Assembly: GCF_964019755.1 (NCBI RefSeq)
Contig: NZ_OZ026469.1
Coordinates: forward strand, 1-64,000
Direction of reading: 5' to 3'
Source of the DNA: Spiroplasma endosymbiont of Polydrusus cervinus
GTDB lineage: Bacteria; Bacillota_I; Bacilli_A; Mycoplasmatales; Mycoplasmataceae
DNA: 64,000 bases
Both the position numbers and the translations under genes were made by a program. Shown here piece after piece: positions 48,911 through 62,219 of the stretch. Each line of letters starts with the position of its first letter. The first letter of the stretch is position 1. The notes beneath the pieces were generated by a model. That model ran no database searches. It saw only the letters and a program-made list of their open reading frames with translations, and was not told where the DNA came from.

Positions 48911-51904
48911 TTATGATAACGTAATTAATTCTGGTGACTCTAATATTTCTTTTAATCTTGCTAAAAAGATTCCCGCTTCTGCAGCGTCAATAATTCGTTG
49001 ATCGATTGTTAAAGAAAGATTCATTATCGAGCGAATTACTAACCTATCACCTTTAATAACAACTGGTTTACGAACAATGCGACCAATACCAATTACAGAT
49101 GAATTAGGGTAAAAAATTGTCGGTATTGCATTAACTGCCCCAACCATTCCATAGTTTGCAATCGTAATAGTGCTTCCTTGTAATTCATAATCATACAATT
49201 CACCTTGACGTAAACGTTCAATTGTTTCTTGAATATTAATTGCAATTTGTTTTAAACTCATTCGTTCAGAAAATTTAATAACTGGAATTACTAATCCTTC
49301 GCTAGTTTCTGTTGCTAAACCAATATGTTGAGAATTTTTAATTACAATTTGATTTGTTTTTGAATCATAATATGAATTTAATTTTGGATATTCACTTAAA
49401 GATAAAGAAACGGCTTTTACCAAGAAACTCATTGTTGAAAAACGAACACCATGATCAGCATTAGCATTTTTTAATTTTCGTTGTTGATCAATTATTGCTG
49501 ACATATCAATTTCAGCATTAATTGTTAATGGTGGAACATGTGCTTGTGACATAATCATTGATTGAATTGCCGGATATCTTGTTGATTTAATTTCTTCTCT
49601 TGTTTCTAATCCTTGTGGTTCAACTTTACTATTCGTATTAATAATACTTAAAGTATTATTTAACGGTTGTACTAAATTTCCATGCGCATTCGAAGTTACA
49701 CTTTCTTCTGCATTAAATTTTTTAACTTGTAAATTATGTGCTCCCTCGTTAGTTCCATTGCCTTGGTGAATGTTTTGTTTATTATTGATTCTGAACTCTT
49801 TTAGCATTTCTTTCAACATTAGATCTGGTTCATTCATTGTTTTTAACATTTGTTGCATTAACATATATTGCATCATTTTATCAAAATTTGTACCATTAGC
49901 ATTATCACTGTTATTGTTATTACTATTATTTACTTGTCGTAAACTTTGAATTTCTCGCAATAATTCATTTTGCCGATTGTTTTGCTCTTGATTAGCTAAA
50001 CGCTCTTTTAAAATTGCCAATTCAATCATAACATTATTATCATTTATTCCTGGTTCGAATCATAATGGATTTGGTTCACGATTATTTTTACCATTATTTT
50101 CCCCTGGTTTGAATTGTTTTGATAATTGTTGTTGTTCACTTGCTGAACCTTGTTGAATTGCATCATTTATTCCTTCGTTTTGTTCTGAATTATGACTATC
50201 ATATTCATTATCTAACATTTCATATTGTGACTCAATTTCTTCAAAAGAAGGACGACGATAATTACTAATTCCCCCTAAAACTGAATCAACTTCAAAATTT
50301 CCTTTTGCAATTTGTTCTATTCTTTTCTTAATTAACTCTCGTTGATTTCTTGTTTTTAAAATTTTTTCTCGTTGACCATTATCATTTAATTTTTGATATA
50401 AACGATCACGATAAGATTTTAACGGCGAAAAATTTCCTGTTTTTTTAGTTTTTGCTTGTTTTTCCTCATTTAGATCAATTTTATAATCATCTGCCGAAAT
50501 ATAAATTTCATCAGATGATTCCTTTTCACCTGCTTGAAGCATATTAGTATTATCGCTAGAACTAGGGCTAGAGCCACTATAACCACTTTTCATTTCTGGT
50601 GATATGTTTCTTTTAATTAAATCATTCATTCTTGCTTGTACAATATTACGTAAAATTTTAGGACGACCATATTCATCTAAAAAGTCCATTGAGCTTTTTG
50701 AACTATCCGCTTCTAATGATAACTCATGAAAATTATTATTATTATGCAATTGCTCACGACGTTGATTTACAAGATTACGAAAACTAGCACTTTTATTTTG
50801 TTCACCCAAAAATCCTGTGGCATTAACTGGTGCTTCGTCTTGTTGTTTTGTGGTATTAACTAAATATTTAGCATATTCTTTTGCTTGTTTTTCTTCTACT
50901 AATTTTGTTTGACCAATTGGAACAGCATTAGTAACAATGCTTTGTGGCGATAGTGATGGTGGTTGGTTTAAACTATTAGTTTGTGCTTCAAAATTACTGT
51001 CTTGAAATATATTATTATTTAAATTAGGAATATTAACCATTGTTGCCTTTACCTCCCTTTTTTTACCCTGGTCCATTTGGTTATTAATTGTATCAATTGA
51101 AGGGATTTTCTCCTGATTATTAATAATATAATTATCATCAATGTTCAAATTTTTAAATGACAAGTTTCAGGTTTTCTTAGGGCCAAATGATAGTCTTGTT
51201 TCATCTCAATGTTTCTTATCTTGTCCTCTTGTTGGAATGGGTTGTTCAAAAGTTTGCTCTTGCTGTAATACATTATTTTGTTGTTTAAAATAAATTGATT
51301 GATTTTGGTCCGGATTTGGTGAAAGGTAAGGATCATTATTAATAACAGTTCCTTCGGGTAAAAATTCTTGCCCATTATTTTGATTAAAATTTGAGGGCAT
51401 TATTTGATTATCAAAGGGTTGTTCATTAATTAATGTAGTTCTTGATTCAACTGCCATTTTATTATTATGAAATTGCTGTTGGTTTAATACTGGTGGGGTA
51501 AAAGTTGGATGTAATGCATCTTCATTTACAACACTAATTCCTGAATAATCATCTTCTTCAATGTCTTTTCATTTTGTTCCAAATTGACCATTTTTTGTTG
51601 TTGAAAACTTTATCCCTTTCTTATTTAAACGCGTAAATTCATTACTCGCAAGACGCTTAAAATAATACTTTTCAATTTCATCTTCAGTTGTTAACAAATA
51701 AGCAATAATAGCATTACTTTTAATTTTGCTGCCTTCTTTAATTGGTTTAACAATAATTCCATTCATTGGGGCTGTAATGATTGATTGGCCGTTTTCACTT
51801 TCAATTAAAGCAATTTCTTCACCTAATTTGACCTCTTCATTTTGATATAGGAATTTATTTAAGATTCCTTTTTTTTCTAATGTTAATACTCTAATTTTTT
51901 CCAT
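48911..51904 (-). CDS. Giant E2-like protein with inactive lipoyl and acyltransferase domains
   Basis: 997 aa, read through four TGA Trp codons. Residues 1-75 form a biotinyl/lipoyl-like domain (GILNKFLYQNEEVKLGEEIA ... TAPMNGIIV), but the lipoyl-lysine position is Asn38 (IESENGQ where E2 proteins have ETDK). Residues about 110-760 are Asn/Gln-rich and probably disordered. Residues 770-997 form a 2-oxoacid dehydrogenase acyltransferase (CAT) domain: STMSFLVKAVSLSL, GSTITIANYGMVGAVNAIP and IGIGRIVRKPVV. The catalytic HRxxDG reads Q969-R-I-I-D-A, so both the His and the Gly are lost. No E1 or E3 gene is nearby. Possibly a structural or scaffold protein derived from PDH E2. Confidence 0.8.
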
Positions 51905-52057
51905 TGTTTCTGATTACCCCATTCAAAAAAACTTAATTTGTTTTATTAAATTTAGTTTAGCCACTTTTATATCCATTTTATTACAAAGTAATTATATCAT
52001 ATTTTCGCTTCTTTTGGGAATAAAAATTAAAAAAAATATTATACACAAAAAATAAAA

Positions 52058-52089
52058 AAATGCAAAATTTTTAGATTTCTTTTGCATTT
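52058..52089 (-). terminator. Minus-strand terminator
   Basis: AAATGCAAAA pairs with TTTTGCATTT across a 12-nt loop; on the minus strand it is followed by a T-rich run. It overlaps the stop of the gene tail at 52071. Confidence 0.6.
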
Positions 52090-52282
52090 CTTTTTATTTT
52101 ATTTACTTTATTATCAAATTCAGTAATATTTTTAGTCTCTGTTAAATTTTTTACTCATTTTTTTCATTTTAAAATAATTAATGCTCAAATCGTTTTTAAA
52201 CGGTCAACTCTTTCCATAATTAAAATAATGTAAACAATATCTAAATTTGAAGTAAAAATTAAAATTGTTAATAACGACAACG
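52071..52282 (-). pseudogene. 3' tail of a membrane-protein gene truncated by the mini-element
   Basis: With UGA as Trp the minus strand reads about 70 residues: a hydrophobic segment LLTILIFTSNLDIVYIILIM, then VDRLKTIWALIILKWKKWVK and a charged tail ending NAKEI. The 5' part is lost at the L-L palindrome. Three close TGA codons hide it under the standard code. Not identifiable. Confidence 0.45.
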
Positions 52283-52366
52283 TGTAAATTGTAAATACCA
52301 AATCATAAAAAGTTAACTATTAATTTAGTTAATTTTTTATGATTTGGTATTTACAATTTACACGTT
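52279..52366. repeat. 88-bp L-L palindrome (minimal element)
   Basis: Two L-type ends face each other (AACGTGTAAATTGTAAATACC ... in inverted form ending CAATTTACACGTT) with arms of about 40 bp meeting at a TTAAT centre. The inner part is the GTTAAC-arm hairpin seen in the larger elements. No coding capacity: a MITE-like form consisting of ends only. Confidence 0.7.
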
Positions 52367-55273: not shown

Positions 55274-55344
55274 ATTTTATTAAATAGCAACCTTACCAGA
55301 AAAAAGTATAATCCGTGTTATGATTTGGTATTTACAATTTACAC

Positions 55345-55432
55345 TCGCCGTTTTCACTATTATTTGGTTTTTCGCAACTAATTAATGATGTTGTAGTTGT
55401 TGCTGTTAATCCGATTGCTCCTAAAATATTTA
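55345..55432 (-). pseudogene. Lipoprotein remnant
   Basis: On the minus strand: ILGAIGLTATTTTSLISCEK and NSENGE, running into the L end, which gives TGT AAA TTG TAA as new stop. The start lies in the transposase hairpin. Confidence 0.5.
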
Positions 55433-55483
55433 AAATGTTATAATTTATGTACAATAATTATAACATTTTAAATATTTTAGGAG
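55418..55483 (+). promoter_or_regulatory. Stem-loop over the transposase ribosome binding site, copy B
   Basis: 28-bp perfect arms (55418-55445 and 55456-55483) around a 10-nt loop, with AGGAG in the right arm; GTG start at 55491. Confidence 0.6.
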
Positions 55484-56138
55484 GTAAAGTGTGAAAAAAT
55501 ATGAAAGATTAGATTTTAATGAAAGAGTAAATTTGGAAAAATTAAAAGATAATGAATTATTTAAAAAGGAAAATGGAACAATTAATATTCGAAAAATTGC
55601 TAAGCAAATGAATAAAGATTATAGAACTATTTGGCAAGAGTTAAATATGTTTGATAATATTAATGATTATAATGCTGCAAAAGCACAAAAAATACATGAT
55701 AAAAATAAAAAATAATGTCGTAAATATTCAATGTTAAATTCACAAGAATTAAGTCATTTTTCTAATGAATATAATAATTTTGGTTGTTCGCCACAAAATA
55801 TTATTACTTCGTATGAATTACAATATAATGTAAAATTTAGTGTATGTTTAAAACAATGTATAAATATATTAAATTAGGTTATTTTAATTTAAAAAAAGAA
55901 ATGCTATATTTTAAAAATAAAAAAAGAAAAACAAAAAATGGGGAACAAAATGATAATCGTGGAAAATTACTTAATATTAGAGATTATAAGCAATTTTAAA
56001 ATGATTATGGAAATGATTTAAGTTTTAGTGGAATTTGAGAAATGGATACTCTTGATTGTGGTAATTTTTATTTATTAGTTTTAGTAAATCGTAAATCAAA
56101 AATACTTTTTTATCATATTTTATTTAGTAAAAATGTTA

Positions 56139-57318
56139 TAGACTGCACCCTGTTTAGTAAGTATTAATAAAAAGGTTTACAAACTTTCATTTATTATATA
56201 TTTTTCTTTTTGGTTTGAATATCATTTATTTCATTTTTTTAACATCATTAATATATTTATTATGAGATTTATAATTTTTATTATGGATTGTTCCTTTTTT
56301 AAGTAATGAATGAAAACTCTCAATAATAATGTTGTCTGCACAATGATAATTTTTACCCATTGAAATTATAATTTTGTTATCTAAACATTTACTATTGTAA
56401 TCTTTAGATGTATATTGATATCCGTGATCTGAATGAATTATTATTTTATTTAAATCTTTTTTTATTTTTTTAATTTTATTAATTGCATCATTTAAATTAT
56501 CAATTACAAGTTTGTTATTATTAAATTTTGATCATTTTACATCAATAATTTCTTTAGTATATCCATCAAGTATTGTTGATTGATAATGTTTTTTACCATT
56601 TCAAATTAAATAAGTTACATCAGTAAATAAATTGAAAATCTTTCTTTAATATCATTAAAATTACGATTTACTAAATCAGGATATTTAATTATATTTTTAT
56701 TTCTATTTTGTTTTATTAATATTTTTCTACGCATACGCTTTACATATTCAGCTTGAATATTATTTTCTTTCATAATTCGCAATACTTTCTTAGCATTATA
56801 AATAATGCCATAATCTTCTTTTAAATATTTGGTAATTCGACGATAACCAAATTGTTTTAAATTTTCTTCATAGACTTTTACAATATTTTTTAATGATTCG
56901 CTATCCTTACCATTACTTGAATAATTTTTATATTTATCTCAATAACTACGCTTTAAATCTGTTATATCAAGTAATAAATTTAGTGGATATTTATTAATGT
57001 TTTCTTTGATAAAAGATACAATTTTTCTTTTATTTAATTGTAAAAGTCATGAAGCTTTTTAGTAATTCATACCTAACTTTGTAATAGTTTAAATCTCTTT
57101 TTTCAAATGATTCTTGTGGACCTTTATTGGTGTTTAAAATTCCTTTCTTAAAATTTTCATACCATGAAGCAACAGTTTTTTATTAATTTGATATTTTTTT
57201 GCAATAAAACTTATACTATTATTTTTAACCTCTTGTACTATCATTTTTCGAAAATATGCTGTATATTTATTAAATTTTTGTCCTTTTCTTGCCATATAAA
57301 AATGCACCTCCTTTAAAG
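56139..57318 (-). mobile_element. IS3-family element, copy 3 (OrfA-side end deleted)
   Basis: The OrfB-side end TAGACTGCACCC is at 56139. The OrfA side stops at 57318, before its terminal repeat, where copy 4 begins, so about 46 bp are missing. OrfA has lost an A in two A-runs (one of them the slippery site), and OrfB has TCAATTTATT in place of TCAATTTTATT, a one-T deletion near the first catalytic Asp. Confidence 0.8.
56177..57295 (-). pseudogene. IS3 transposase OrfAB, copy 3
   Basis: Both parts are frameshifted: OrfA after QINKK (one A short), and again at the A-AAA-AAG site; OrfB near 56630 by the T deletion. The Glu of the DDE triad is kept. Confidence 0.75.
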
Positions 57319-58546
57319 TAGACTGCATCCTGTTTAGTAAGTATTAATAAAAAGGTTTACAAACTTTCATTTATTATATATTTTTCTTTTTGGTTTGAAT
57401 ATCATTTATTTAATTTTTTAACATCATTAATATATTCATTATGAGATTTATAATTTTTATTATGGATTGTTCCTTTTTTAAGTAATGAATGAAAACTTTC
57501 AATAATAATGTTGTCTGCACAATGATAATTTTTACCCATTGAAATTATAATTTTGTTATCTAAACATTTACTATTGTAATCTTTAGATGTATATTGATAT
57601 CCGTGATCTGAATGAATTATTATTTTATTTAAATCTTTTTTTATTTTTTTAATTTTATTAATTGCATCATTTAAATTATCAATTACAAGTTTGTTATTAT
57701 TAAATTTTGATCATTTTACATCAATAATTTCTTTAGTATATCCATCAAGTATTGTTGATTGATAATGTTTTTTACCATTTCAAATTAAATAAGTTACATC
57801 AGTAAATAAATTGAAAATCTTTCTTTAATATCATTAAAATTACGATTTACTAAATCAGGATATTTAATTATATTTTTATTTCTATTTTGTTTTATTAATA
57901 TTTTTATACGCATACGCTTTACATATTCAGCTTGAATATTATTTTCTTTCATAATTCGCAATACTTTCTTAGCATTATAAATAATGCCATAATCTTCTTT
58001 TAAATATTTGGTAATTCGACGATAACCAAATTGTTTTAAATTTTCTTCATAGACTTTTACAATATTTTTTAATGATTCGCTATCCTTACCATTACTTGAA
58101 TAATTTTTATATTTATCTCAATAACTACGCTTTAAATCTGTTATATCAAGTAATAAATTTAGTGGATATTTATTAATGTTTTCTTTGATAAAAGATACAA
58201 TTTTTCTTTTATTTAATTGTAAAAGTCATGAAGCTTTTTTAGTAATTTATACCTAACTTTGTAATAGTTTAAATCTCTTTTTTCAAATGATTCTTTTGGA
58301 CCTTTATTGGTGTTTAAAATTCCTTTCTTAAAATTTTCATACCATGAAGCAACAGTTTTTTTATTAATTTGATATTTTTTTGCAATAAAACTTATACTAT
58401 TATTTTTAACCTCTTGTACTATCATTTTTCGAAAATATGCTGTATATTTATTAAATTTTTGTCCTTTTCTTGCCATATAAAAATGCACCTCCTCTAAAGT
58501 TTAGCAAAGACTTTTTTTCTTTACTTACTTTTTTGGGTGCAGTCTA
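57319..58546 (-). mobile_element. IS3-family element, copy 4 (1228 bp)
   Basis: Full length with both ends (TAGACTGCATCC at 57319, one change; GGGTGCAGTCTA ending 58546). Head-to-tail with copy 3 without spacer. OrfA is open; OrfB has the same T deletion as copies 3 and 5, plus an Arg-to-Ile change in RMRRKI. Confidence 0.83.
57357..58476 (-). pseudogene. IS3 transposase, copy 4: OrfA open, OrfB frameshifted
   Basis: OrfA (58213-58476) is intact with its helix-turn-helix and the A-AAA-AAG site. The OrfB part breaks near 57812 by the missing T, between FNDIKERFSI and the first catalytic Asp, so no DDE core can be made. GGAGGTG precedes the start. Confidence 0.75.
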
Positions 58547-59071
58547 GTGCAGTCTATATTTGTATTAACAATTTTAATGAAAATGATTAAACAAATTGGT
58601 ATTAGTAAATTTAGTTGTATTTTAACCGATAGAGGAAAATAATTTTATAGATGAAAAACAATAGAAAAGCACTTTAAAATAAGAGTTTATTTTTGTGATC
58701 CTGGTAAACCTCACCAGAAAGCATTAGTAGAAAGAATAAATAGAGATATAAGGCGTTTATTGGCTCAAAATGAGCCATTAATTAATATTCGTAGTAGATT
58801 AAAATCTATTTTAGATATATTAAATACCACAATTAGACCTTGCTTGGAAAATTTTACATCAAGACAATATTTTAAAAAAATTTTTTTAAATTAAATTAGT
58901 GTTTGTTAAGATTAGTAAAATTTATTTTTTGTTGTGTTTAATTTTATAATTTTAAAAATAAATATTAAAAACAATATTTTTAATTTAATATTTTTTGTAA
59001 TTATTGTTTTTTATTTTTAATTTGTTATAATTTTACTAACTTTTTATGATTTAGTTTTACAGTATACAATT

Positions 59072-59097
59072 AAAAAATCCCATTAATGGGATTTTTT
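59072..59097. terminator. rpsU terminator
   Basis: AAAAAATCCCATT and AATGGGATTTTTT are perfectly complementary; works in either direction. It overlaps the rpsU stop codon and stands four bases from the R end of copy B. Confidence 0.8.
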
Positions 59098-59260
59098 AAC
59101 GAAAACTACGCAATTGGTCTTGCTTATAACGTCTTTTTTCTTTTTTGCTCATTCAGTGTTCACGTTTACGGGCTTCTTTTCTTTTAACTGACGAAACCTT
59201 GTTAAATCGTTTCAACGCTTTGTCTAGCGGTTCTCCTGCTTTTACAACAACAGTAGCCAT
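59096..59260 (-). CDS. rpsU: 30S ribosomal protein S21
   Basis: 54 aa: MATVVVKAGEPLDKALKRFN, then the basic tail KRKEARKREHWMSKKEKRRY. A TGA Trp (REHW) splits it under the standard code, and no plus-strand gene covers it. TAGGAGTT precedes ATG 59260. S21 contacts the anti-Shine-Dalgarno region on the 30S platform. It is an isolated core gene held between element copies B and C, with about 85 bp upstream for its promoter. Confidence 0.93.
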
Positions 59261-59598
59261 AATATTTCAACTCCTAAAACTATATAAATTAACAATATTA
59301 TCTTATCATACTTTTTTGGACAAAACAAACTTTTCTGATTTATGTATGTATATACTGTAAAACTAAATCATAAAAAGTTAATAAAATTATAACAAATTAA
59401 AAATAAAAAACAATAATTACAAAAAATATTAAATTAAAAATATTGTTTTTAATATTTATTTTTAAAATTATAAAATTAAACACAACAAAAAATAAATTTT
59501 ACTAATCTTAACAAACACTAATTTAATTTAAAAAAATTTTTTAAAATATTGTCTTGATGTAAAATTTTCCAAGCAAGGTCTAATTGTGGTATTTAATA

Positions 59599-60826
59599 TA
59601 GACTGCAACCAAAAGAGTAAGTAAAGAAAAAAAGTCTTTGCTAAACTTTAAAGGAGGTGCATTTTTATATGGCAAGAAAAGGACAAAAATTTAATAAATA
59701 TACAGCATATTTTCGAAAAATAATAGTACAAGAGGTTAAAAATAATAGTATAAGTTTTATTGCAAAAAAATATCAAATTAATAAAAAAACTGTTGCTTCA
59801 TGGTATGAAAATTTTAAGAAAGGAATTTTAAACACCAATAAAGGTCCACAAGAATCATTTGAAAAAAGAGATTTAAACTATTACAAAGTTAGGTATGAAT
59901 TACTAAAAAAGCTTCATGACTTTTACAATTAAATAAAAGAAAAATTGTATCTTTTATCAAAGAAAACATTAATAAATATCCACTAAATTTATTACTTGAT
60001 ATAACAGATTTAAAGCGTAGTTATTGAGATAAATATAAAAATTATTCAAGTAATGGTAAGGATAGCGAATCATTAAAAAATATTGTAAAAGTCTATGAAG
60101 AAAATTTAAAACAATTTGGTTATCGTCGAATTACCAAATATTTAAAAGAAGATTATGGCATTGTTTATAATGCTAAGAAAGTATTGCGAATTATGAAAGA
60201 AAATAATATTCAAGCTGAATATGTAAAGCGTATGCGTAGAAAAATATTAATAAAACAAAATAGAAATAAAAATATAATTAAATATCCTTATTTAATAAAT
60301 CGTAATTTTAATGATATTAAAGAAAGATTTTCAATTTATTTACTGATGTAACTTATTTAATTTGAAATGGTAAAAAACATTATCAATCAACAATACTTGA
60401 TGGATATACTAAAGAAATTATTGATGTAAAATGATCAAAATTTAATAATAACAAACTTGTACTTGATAATTTAAATGATGCAATTAATAAAATTAAAAAA
60501 ATAAAAAAAGATTTAAATAAAATAATAATTCATTCAGATCACGGATATCAATATACATCTAAAGATTACAATAGTAAGTGTTTAGATAACAAAATTATAA
60601 TTTCAATGGGTAAAAATTATCATTGTGCAGACAACATTATTATTGAAAGTTTTCATTCATTACTTAAAAAAGGAACAATCCATAATAAAAATTATAAATC
60701 TCATAATGAATATATTAATGATGTTAAAAAATGAAATAAATGATATTCAAACCAAAAAGAAAAATATATAATAAATGAAAGTTTGTAAACCTTTTTATTA
60801 ATAGTTACTAAACAGGGTGCAGTCTA
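59599..60826 (+). mobile_element. IS3-family element, copy 5 (1228 bp)
   Basis: Left TAGACTGCAACC, right GGGTGCAGTCTA. ATA flanks it on both sides, consistent with a 3-bp target duplication typical of IS3. Inserted in the 3' part of IS30 copy C, opposite orientation. OrfA intact; OrfB lacks one T. Confidence 0.87.
59669..60788 (+). pseudogene. IS3 transposase, copy 5: OrfA open, OrfB frameshifted
   Basis: OrfA (59669-59932) is open, with the helix-turn-helix and slippery site. OrfB breaks near 60335 (TCAATTTATT, one T missing), the same lesion as copies 3 and 4. Glu of the DDE triad is present (IIIESFHS). Confidence 0.75.
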
Positions 60827-61801
60827 ATAATAAAATAGATTTTAATCTACTACGAATATTAATTAATGGCTCATTTTGAGCCAATAAACGCCTTATATCT
60901 CTATTTATTCTTTCTACTAATGCTTTCTGGCGAGGTTTACCAGGATCACAAAAATAAACTCTTATTTTAAAGTGTTTTTCTATTATTTTTCATCTATAAA
61001 ATTATTTTCCTCTATCGGTTAAAATACAACTAAATTTACTAATACCAATTTGTTTAATCATTTTCATTAAAATTGTTAATACAATACTTGCCTTTTTACT
61101 AAATAAAATATGATAAAAAAGTATTTTTGATTTACGATTTACTAAAACTAACAAATGAAAATTACCACAATCAAGAGTATCCATTTCTCAAATTACACTA
61201 AAACTTAAATCATTTCCATAATCATTTAAAAATTGCTTATAATCTCTAATATTAAGTAATTTTCCACGATTATCATTTTGTTCCCCATTTTTTGTTTTTC
61301 TTTTTTTTATTTTTAAAATATAACATTTCTTTTTTTAAATTAAAATAACCTAATTTAATATATTTATACATTGTTTTAAAGCATACACCAAATTTTACAT
61401 TATATTGTAATTCATACGAAGTAATAATATTTTGTGGCGAACGACCAAAATTATTATATTCATTAGAAAAATGGCGTAATTCTTGTGAATTTAACATTAA
61501 ATATTTACGACATTGTTTTTTATTTTTATCATGTATTTTTTGTGCTTTTGCAGCATTATAATCATTAATATTATCAAACATATTTAACTCTTGCCAAATA
61601 GTTCTATAATCTCTATTCATTTGCTTAGCAATTTTTCGAATATTAATTGTTCCATTTTTATTTTTAAATAATTCATTATTTTTTAATTTTTCCAAATTTA
61701 CTCTTTCATTAAAATCTAATCTTTCATATTTTTTCATACTTTACCTCCTAAAATACTTAAAATGTTATAATTATTGCACATAAATTATAACATTTTAAGT
61801 A

Positions 61802-61887
61802 TTTTAGGAGCAATCGGATTAACAGCAACAAGTACAACATCATTAATTAGTTGCGAAAAACCAAATAATAGTGAAAATGGGGAGTAA
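61802..61887 (+). pseudogene. Lipoprotein remnant
   Basis: Reads ILGAIGLTATSTTSLISCEK, then NSENGE and TAA 61885-61887. The start is merged with the transposase hairpin (arms around 61743-61808), as in copies A and B. Confidence 0.5.
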
Positions 61888-61975
61888 TAAACCAGAACCC
61901 AAACCACAGCAACCACCAGTTGGAAGTAATTGAAAGTTAATTGAAGATTATAAATTACGCGGTATAATTTATTCT

Positions 61976-62086
61976 TTACTTTTTAATTTCAATATCATTT
62001 GCAATCTTATTGACAGTCTTAATAACAATATCTTTACCATACTTTTTTATTAACGACCGCAAAATTAAATATTGCTTTATTTGCAT
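61976..62086 (-). CDS. 36-aa conserved element-borne protein, intact copy
   Basis: ATG 62086 after TAGGAGG; starts MQIKQYLILRSL and ends IEIKK, with one Asn-to-Lys change relative to the other copies. Confidence 0.55.
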   Translation of the reverse strand: MQIKQYLILRSLIKKYGKDIVIKTVNKIANDIEIKK

Positions 62087-62219
62087 AATTTCAACCTCCT
62101 ATAATTAACTTTTTGTGATTATTGTTTTTTATTTTTAATTTGTTATAATTTTATTAACTTGTTAAGATTTAGTTTTACAGTATACAATAATGAACCAGGA
62201 GATTCAAAGGAGAAAAAAG

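Follow-up and report, generated by a model that had tools for sequence, protein, structure and literature searches.

The window, a stretch of 64,000 nucleotides from the Spiroplasma endosymbiont of Polydrusus cervinus, encodes a protein of 997 amino acids that has the folds of a 2-oxoacid dehydrogenase acyltransferase (E2) at its two ends and has lost the catalytic residues of that enzyme. We refer to it as pseudo-E2. That it is a non-catalytic protein, maintained by selection for something other than pyruvate dehydrogenase (PDH), is virtually certain. In these helical, wall-less bacteria its role is probably structural, in cell shape or movement, and not metabolic, because it is strongly selected even where the pathway is missing and has been lost where MreB, the actin-like skeleton, has been lost. 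Our best explanation, to which we assign a probability of roughly 0.5, is that it is a pan-Spiroplasma scaffold derived from E2 that serves the MreB cytoskeleton. The link to MreB is new here and was absent from the original prediction made for this DNA.

The gene runs on the minus strand from position 51904 to 48911 (997 codons plus stop, genetic code 4, with four TGA codons read as Trp), and all features of the gene given below are on the same strand. A promoter-like site with a TG before the −10 element, which is a consensus match only, lies about 90 nt upstream of the start (51991..52020, minus strand). Further upstream is the remnant of a MATE transporter gene (52071..52301, minus strand), identified by BLAST to L038, L041, L044 and others; the gene is intact upstream of pseudo-E2 in several relatives, for example in L038 (Pfam MatE, E = 1.6e-21). 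The flanking genes are mannose-6-phosphate isomerase, PTS and MATE-type genes, with no pdh genes among them. The region from 55300 to 62100 of the window is densely filled with remains of insertion-sequence transposase reading frames, which are short, and has a lower GC content than the neighboring core genes.

The two ends had been described as a lipoyl domain and an E2 catalytic (CAT) domain, and Pfam and structure predictions agree on both, including the E2 fold. The N-terminal domain (residues 1–73; 51686..51904) is matched weakly by sequence (Biotin_lipoyl, residues 10–70, E = 0.009); when residues 1–85 are modeled alone with AlphaFold2 (AF2), the mean confidence is high (pLDDT 92.6) and the model matches lipoyl/biotinyl domains with Z scores of about 10–11. 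The CAT domain (residues 765–997; 48914..49612) is matched by PF00198 over residues 767–995 with E = 8e-64. It is confidently predicted in the full-length AF2 monomer model, and superimposes on E2 cores with Z of about 28 and an rmsd of 1.8–2.0 over about 207 residues. It ends in a PELITLS tail, of which P991 is kept in all 44 orthologues.

The catalytic HRxxDG motif, which is H-R-M-I-D-G in Geobacillus E2p, aligns with Q969-R-I-I-D-A. The replacement of the catalytic His by Gln969 (48998..49000) is fixed: the residue is Gln in 43 of the 44 orthologues and Arg in one, and is never His. Ala916 (49157..49159) occupies what we take, from knowledge of the family, to be the position of the E2 active-site Ser/Thr, which assists catalysis in active E2s; here the orthologues have Ala (38), Ser (3), Thr (2) or Gly (1). 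The tip of the lipoyl-fold hairpin is at residues 37–38 in the AF2 model, and we therefore assign Asn38 (51791..51793) to the position of the lipoyl Lys. The claim that both chemistry sites are lost thus holds for this species. It does not hold for all, because a Lys is found at or next to the hairpin tip in 4 of 25 aligned N-termini (L049, L050, L092 and L097, with tip sequences ETNKG and NNKEE). On these alignments, the loss of the lipoyl Lys is lineage-specific and not universal among pseudo-E2 orthologues, and lipoylation may persist in some species despite the dead acyltransferase. The lipoyl domain is absent from both orthologues from the genus g10, and the N-terminal reading frame is broken in G042; it is the more expendable part of the protein.

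Between the two domains is a linker (residues 74–764; 49613..51685) rich in Asn and Gln (14.1% and 8.5%, respectively, over residues 81–760), in which low-confidence stretches alternate with predicted helices. These stretches agree with the earlier description of the linker as a long disordered arm; what does not fit that description is a set of conserved, repeated helical motifs, followed toward the C-terminus by a predicted coiled coil and then a Met-rich helix. In the orthologue alignment, residues 341–570 and 621–705 are conserved, and residues 81–340 and 571–620 drift. The motif FRxx[ILV]xx[RK] generally occurs as a pair, and mostly as a triplet in the window's genus. Copy 1 (residues 375–386, FRNLVNQRREQL; 50747..50782) has an invariant F375 and nearly invariant R376 and R382 among 21 orthologues; copy 2 (residues 418–429, LRNIVQARMNDL; 50618..50653), about 42 residues further on, has invariant R419 and R425 in the same number; and copy 3 (residues 498–506, YRDRLYQKL; 50387..50413) was observed within the window's genus itself. 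The pattern [FLY]Rxx[ILV]xx[RK] has 38 matches in 21 linkers compared to 1.6 expected from shuffled sequences, a count that misses copy 2 of several Apis-type sequences, where it starts with Met. The g10 and ixodetis-like orthologues also retain the pair and its spacing, with F375, R419 and R425 invariant there too, and as judged from these sequences the repeated helical motifs predate the genus. The coiled-coil-like region is a long AF2 helix conserved in the orthologue alignment (residues 622–661; 49922..50041), and the Met-rich helix, identified from AF2 and the alignment, is amphipathic and lies around FDKMMQYMLMQQMLKTM (residues 671–689; 49838..49894). A search for known domains in the linker gave weak single matches only in Pfam, and a best hit of E = 0.43 in a sequence search of the PDB.

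Pseudo-E2 is full length in all 14 genomes of the window's genus, and there are 44 intact orthologues across the window's family and a second, ixodetis-like family. (The labels citri, mirum, chrysopicola, ixodetis-like, Mesoplasma/Entomoplasma/mycoides and Apis are what we take the clades and species to be, on our own reading of genome relations.) In a tree of CAT domains the pseudo-E2 group is monophyletic (98/97) and distinct from both pdhC and another pseudo-E2 paralogue; the g10 rows carry a long-branch warning. The CAT domains of the two g10 orthologues are strongly diverged, and these proteins were recognized as orthologues by their pair of motifs, their place in the tree and a neighboring gene in common.

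The distribution of pseudo-E2 follows that of MreB. In the window's family (60 genomes), it is found in the 42 genomes that have full-length Fibril (Fib) and several strong MreB matches, and is absent from the other 18. (In the Fib searches, the first probe was checked by its 99% identical matches, and the later query was the genome's own Fib.) In the ixodetis-like family, full Fibril is found in none of the five genomes. There, pseudo-E2 is intact in G307, alongside four intact MreBs; G306 and G309 have neither; and G308 has an MreB fragment together with a pseudo-E2 that lacks its N-terminus and contains one frameshift and one stop. The discordant case is G305, in which the MreBs are mostly broken and pseudo-E2 is intact. 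Decaying MreB loci can be seen in G305 (C1:409066-410025 and 690238-691601) and G308 (C1:1295189-1295461), alongside relatives with no MreB at all. The five ixodetis-like genomes lie very close together in a DnaK tree, which leaves out most helical genera, implying that the losses there are recent. Dependence on Fibril was considered and rejected, as ixodetis-like genomes keep pseudo-E2 without full Fibril. Pseudo-E2 follows MreB, and not Fibril, through independent losses, in the Mesoplasma/Entomoplasma/mycoides-type genera and, separately, in the ixodetis-like family. An earlier study describes the loss of fib and mreB from the Mycoides-Entomoplasmataceae clade, whose cells are coccoid (PMC6117150). 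A majority of the non-helical genomes that we checked retain one divergent MreB-like reading frame (L113–L122, about 320–400 amino acids, several of them no more than 5 kb from the contig start). Pseudo-E2 shares no operon with mreB or fib.

The same distribution could arise if pseudo-E2 were a conserved scaffold for a target outside the cytoskeleton, such as the membrane, division or metabolic enzymes, and had been lost by chance alongside mreB. Independent co-losses are few (one or two in the window's family and one or two in the ixodetis-like family), many other genes were lost on the same branches, and in several MreB-bearing genomes the gene adjoins one for an uncharacterized protein of about 425 amino acids. 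Against this, the losses occurred in two distant families, and in G308 the decay is still under way. We regard this explanation as a real but minority possibility. The neighbor of about 425 amino acids, which has no Pfam match and is a possible partner, is encoded directly upstream of pseudo-E2 in many genomes of other genera (for example L084:4136-5416, L087:3200-4486 and L088:8078-9349).

The proposal that the protein is under selection for another job is strongly supported. Gln969 is fixed, the gene outlives PDH in several genomes, and the CAT domain has a dN/dS of 0.016–0.074, as low as that of the catalytic pdhC (0.022–0.074) in comparable pairs (dS of roughly 0.2–0.4; pairs with dS below about 0.1 are noisy and were left out), a sign of purifying selection. 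Both DHRxxDG and the lipoyl DK are retained in all pdhC genes that were examined. Such extreme conservation goes beyond the obvious need of a bare scaffold, and could be accounted for by a metabolic sensor. In this reading the CAT pocket would bind CoA or acyl-CoA without catalysis and relay the metabolic state of the cell to its shape or motility; chemotaxis, which Spiroplasma performs with no two-component system (PMC5289999), is one example. Such binding is hypothetical, however, the active-site Ser/Thr position varies among orthologues, and the g10 orthologues are strongly diverged in just this domain. We consider a sensor improbable.

The original prediction noted that the gene is not next to PDH genes. 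This is true, and the separation goes further. The window genome has only two CAT matches, namely pseudo-E2 and one decayed copy; the search for a separate catalytic E2 (pdhC) found none, pseudo-E2 being the one intact E2-type gene there, and no PDH E1 was found above the Pfam cut-off, the E1_dh match being sub-threshold. Similarly, pseudo-E2 is intact in G004, G008 and G012, which have no good E1 match, and in G007, which has a short one. Conversely, pseudo-E2 is absent from the Mesoplasma/Entomoplasma/mycoides-type genera, nearly all of which have a pdhC-like CAT match. These results bear on the possibility that pseudo-E2 is an auxiliary subunit of the PDH core, which would co-assemble with pdhC and tune or anchor the complex. 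The precedent is the eukaryotic E3-binding protein (E3BP), an E2 paralogue in which the catalytic His is also missing (PMC10156792); many relatives do possess PDH, and in four N-termini the residue at the lipoyl tip, or one adjoining it, is Lys. However, the peripheral subunit-binding domain that binds E3/E1 (PF02817) is found in none of 21 orthologues, while pdhC gives E = 2.5e-12 as a control in the same library; the gene has no pdh neighbors; it is missing from genera that have the pdhC-like protein; and in the window genome there is neither a catalytic E2 nor an E1 with which it could integrate into a core. With both the E3-binding domain and PDH missing, we reject this role as very improbable. 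The idea that the gene is a neutral or decaying copy, or an artefact of annotation, has nothing in its favor except the loss of catalytic residues, and can be dismissed given 44 intact orthologues that share the loss of His over a deep phylogeny, a CAT dN/dS of about 0.02–0.07, and the real decay that is visible for comparison in the G308 copy and in the second paralogue.

We propose the following route to a scaffold serving the MreB cytoskeleton. A pdhC-like acyltransferase would have been duplicated before the genus diversified; from one copy the catalytic His and the E3/E1-binding domain would then have disappeared, and a long arm with the short helical motifs FRxx[ILV]xx[RK], the coiled coil and the Met-rich helix would have been acquired. 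If the CAT domains retain the trimeric (possibly cage) assembly of E2, they would form a hub, from which the arms would display many copies of the motif and so bind a partner multivalently. That partner may belong to the apparatus for shape and swimming that is built on MreB, or may be the anchor of this apparatus, either the membrane or the cell pole. The original suggestion of a cage or scaffold fits the E2 fold and the conserved C-terminal tail, and we think it likely that pseudo-E2 is an oligomeric scaffold. That it works with the MreB apparatus is an evenly balanced proposition. A more specific version, in which the E2 core was exapted as a cytoskeletal hub whose trimers or cages use their arms to tether MreB filaments to the membrane or to build the polar dumbbell, by which the swimming cell would be polarized, is tentative, and membership of the dumbbell in particular is doubtful and speculative.

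A role with MreB is attractive because reconstitution with MreB lacks the tapered pole: MreB and Fib together gave no polar tip, a structure described as “made by unknown proteins” (PMC9710875), and in a second system polarization was not seen (PMC9663586). In Spiroplasma eriocheiris, pseudo-E2 is not among the bands identified in the Triton-insoluble fraction (PMC5289999, Table 1) or in the isolated ribbon (PMC9582952, Table 2). This suggests that it is not a major component of the ribbon, and that its role is more likely to be minor, polar or regulatory than that of a ribbon subunit. A literature search found no direct evidence for pseudo-E2 as a cytoskeletal protein. Helicity switching has been reproduced with two MreBs in a minimal cell, with the tapered pole and dumbbell missing and their proteins unknown (PMC9710875, PMC5289999, PMC8432965). 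Pseudo-E2, being conserved, non-catalytic, probably oligomeric, and distributed as MreB is, offers a concrete and testable candidate for one missing factor. It is also an example of a bacterial E2 pseudoenzyme that has survived the loss of pyruvate dehydrogenase, and for this reason names transferred from PF00198 would mislead.

Among the known systems that come closest to pseudo-E2 is the E2 of PDH (pdhC, with PF00198, PF00364 and PF02817; for example Geobacillus E2p, 1b5s), with which it shares the N-terminal lipoyl fold, the C-terminal CAT fold (about 34% identity) and a similar C-terminal PExL tail. It differs in having no catalytic His and no E3-binding domain, in the loss of the lipoyl Lys in the window protein, in a linker that is several times longer and has conserved motifs of its own, and in the lack of PDH partners in the window genome. 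Another is E3BP (protein X) of eukaryotic PDH, an E2 paralogue whose CAT-like domain is also inactive; unlike it, pseudo-E2 has no E3-binding domain, is kept without PDH, and is bacterial and confined to Spiroplasma lineages.

The second pseudo-E2 paralogue of the window's genus (for example L051:2412-4700) shares a lipoyl-like N-terminus, a long linker and an inactive CAT domain with GYNExxID in place of HRxxDG, but is at another locus, is not a sister group in the CAT tree and lacks FRxx[ILV]xx[RK]. It is intact in L051, L054, L056, L057 and L058 (586–762 amino acids), has a His/Ser-rich linker in some species, and is flanked by a phosphosugar mutase-like gene on one side and an HD-domain gene on the other. 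In the window genome it has decayed, with stops and frameshifts (C1:88979-89626; L035:6794-7648).

Fibril, finally, provides a parallel case of an enzyme that became a structural protein, being derived from a metabolic enzyme, a nucleosidase. Its fold is unrelated and its full-length form is absent from ixodetis-like genomes that retain pseudo-E2, but in the window's family the two proteins have the same distribution. If our reading of pseudo-E2 is right, it would be the second conversion of an enzyme to the cytoskeleton in Spiroplasma, besides Fibril.
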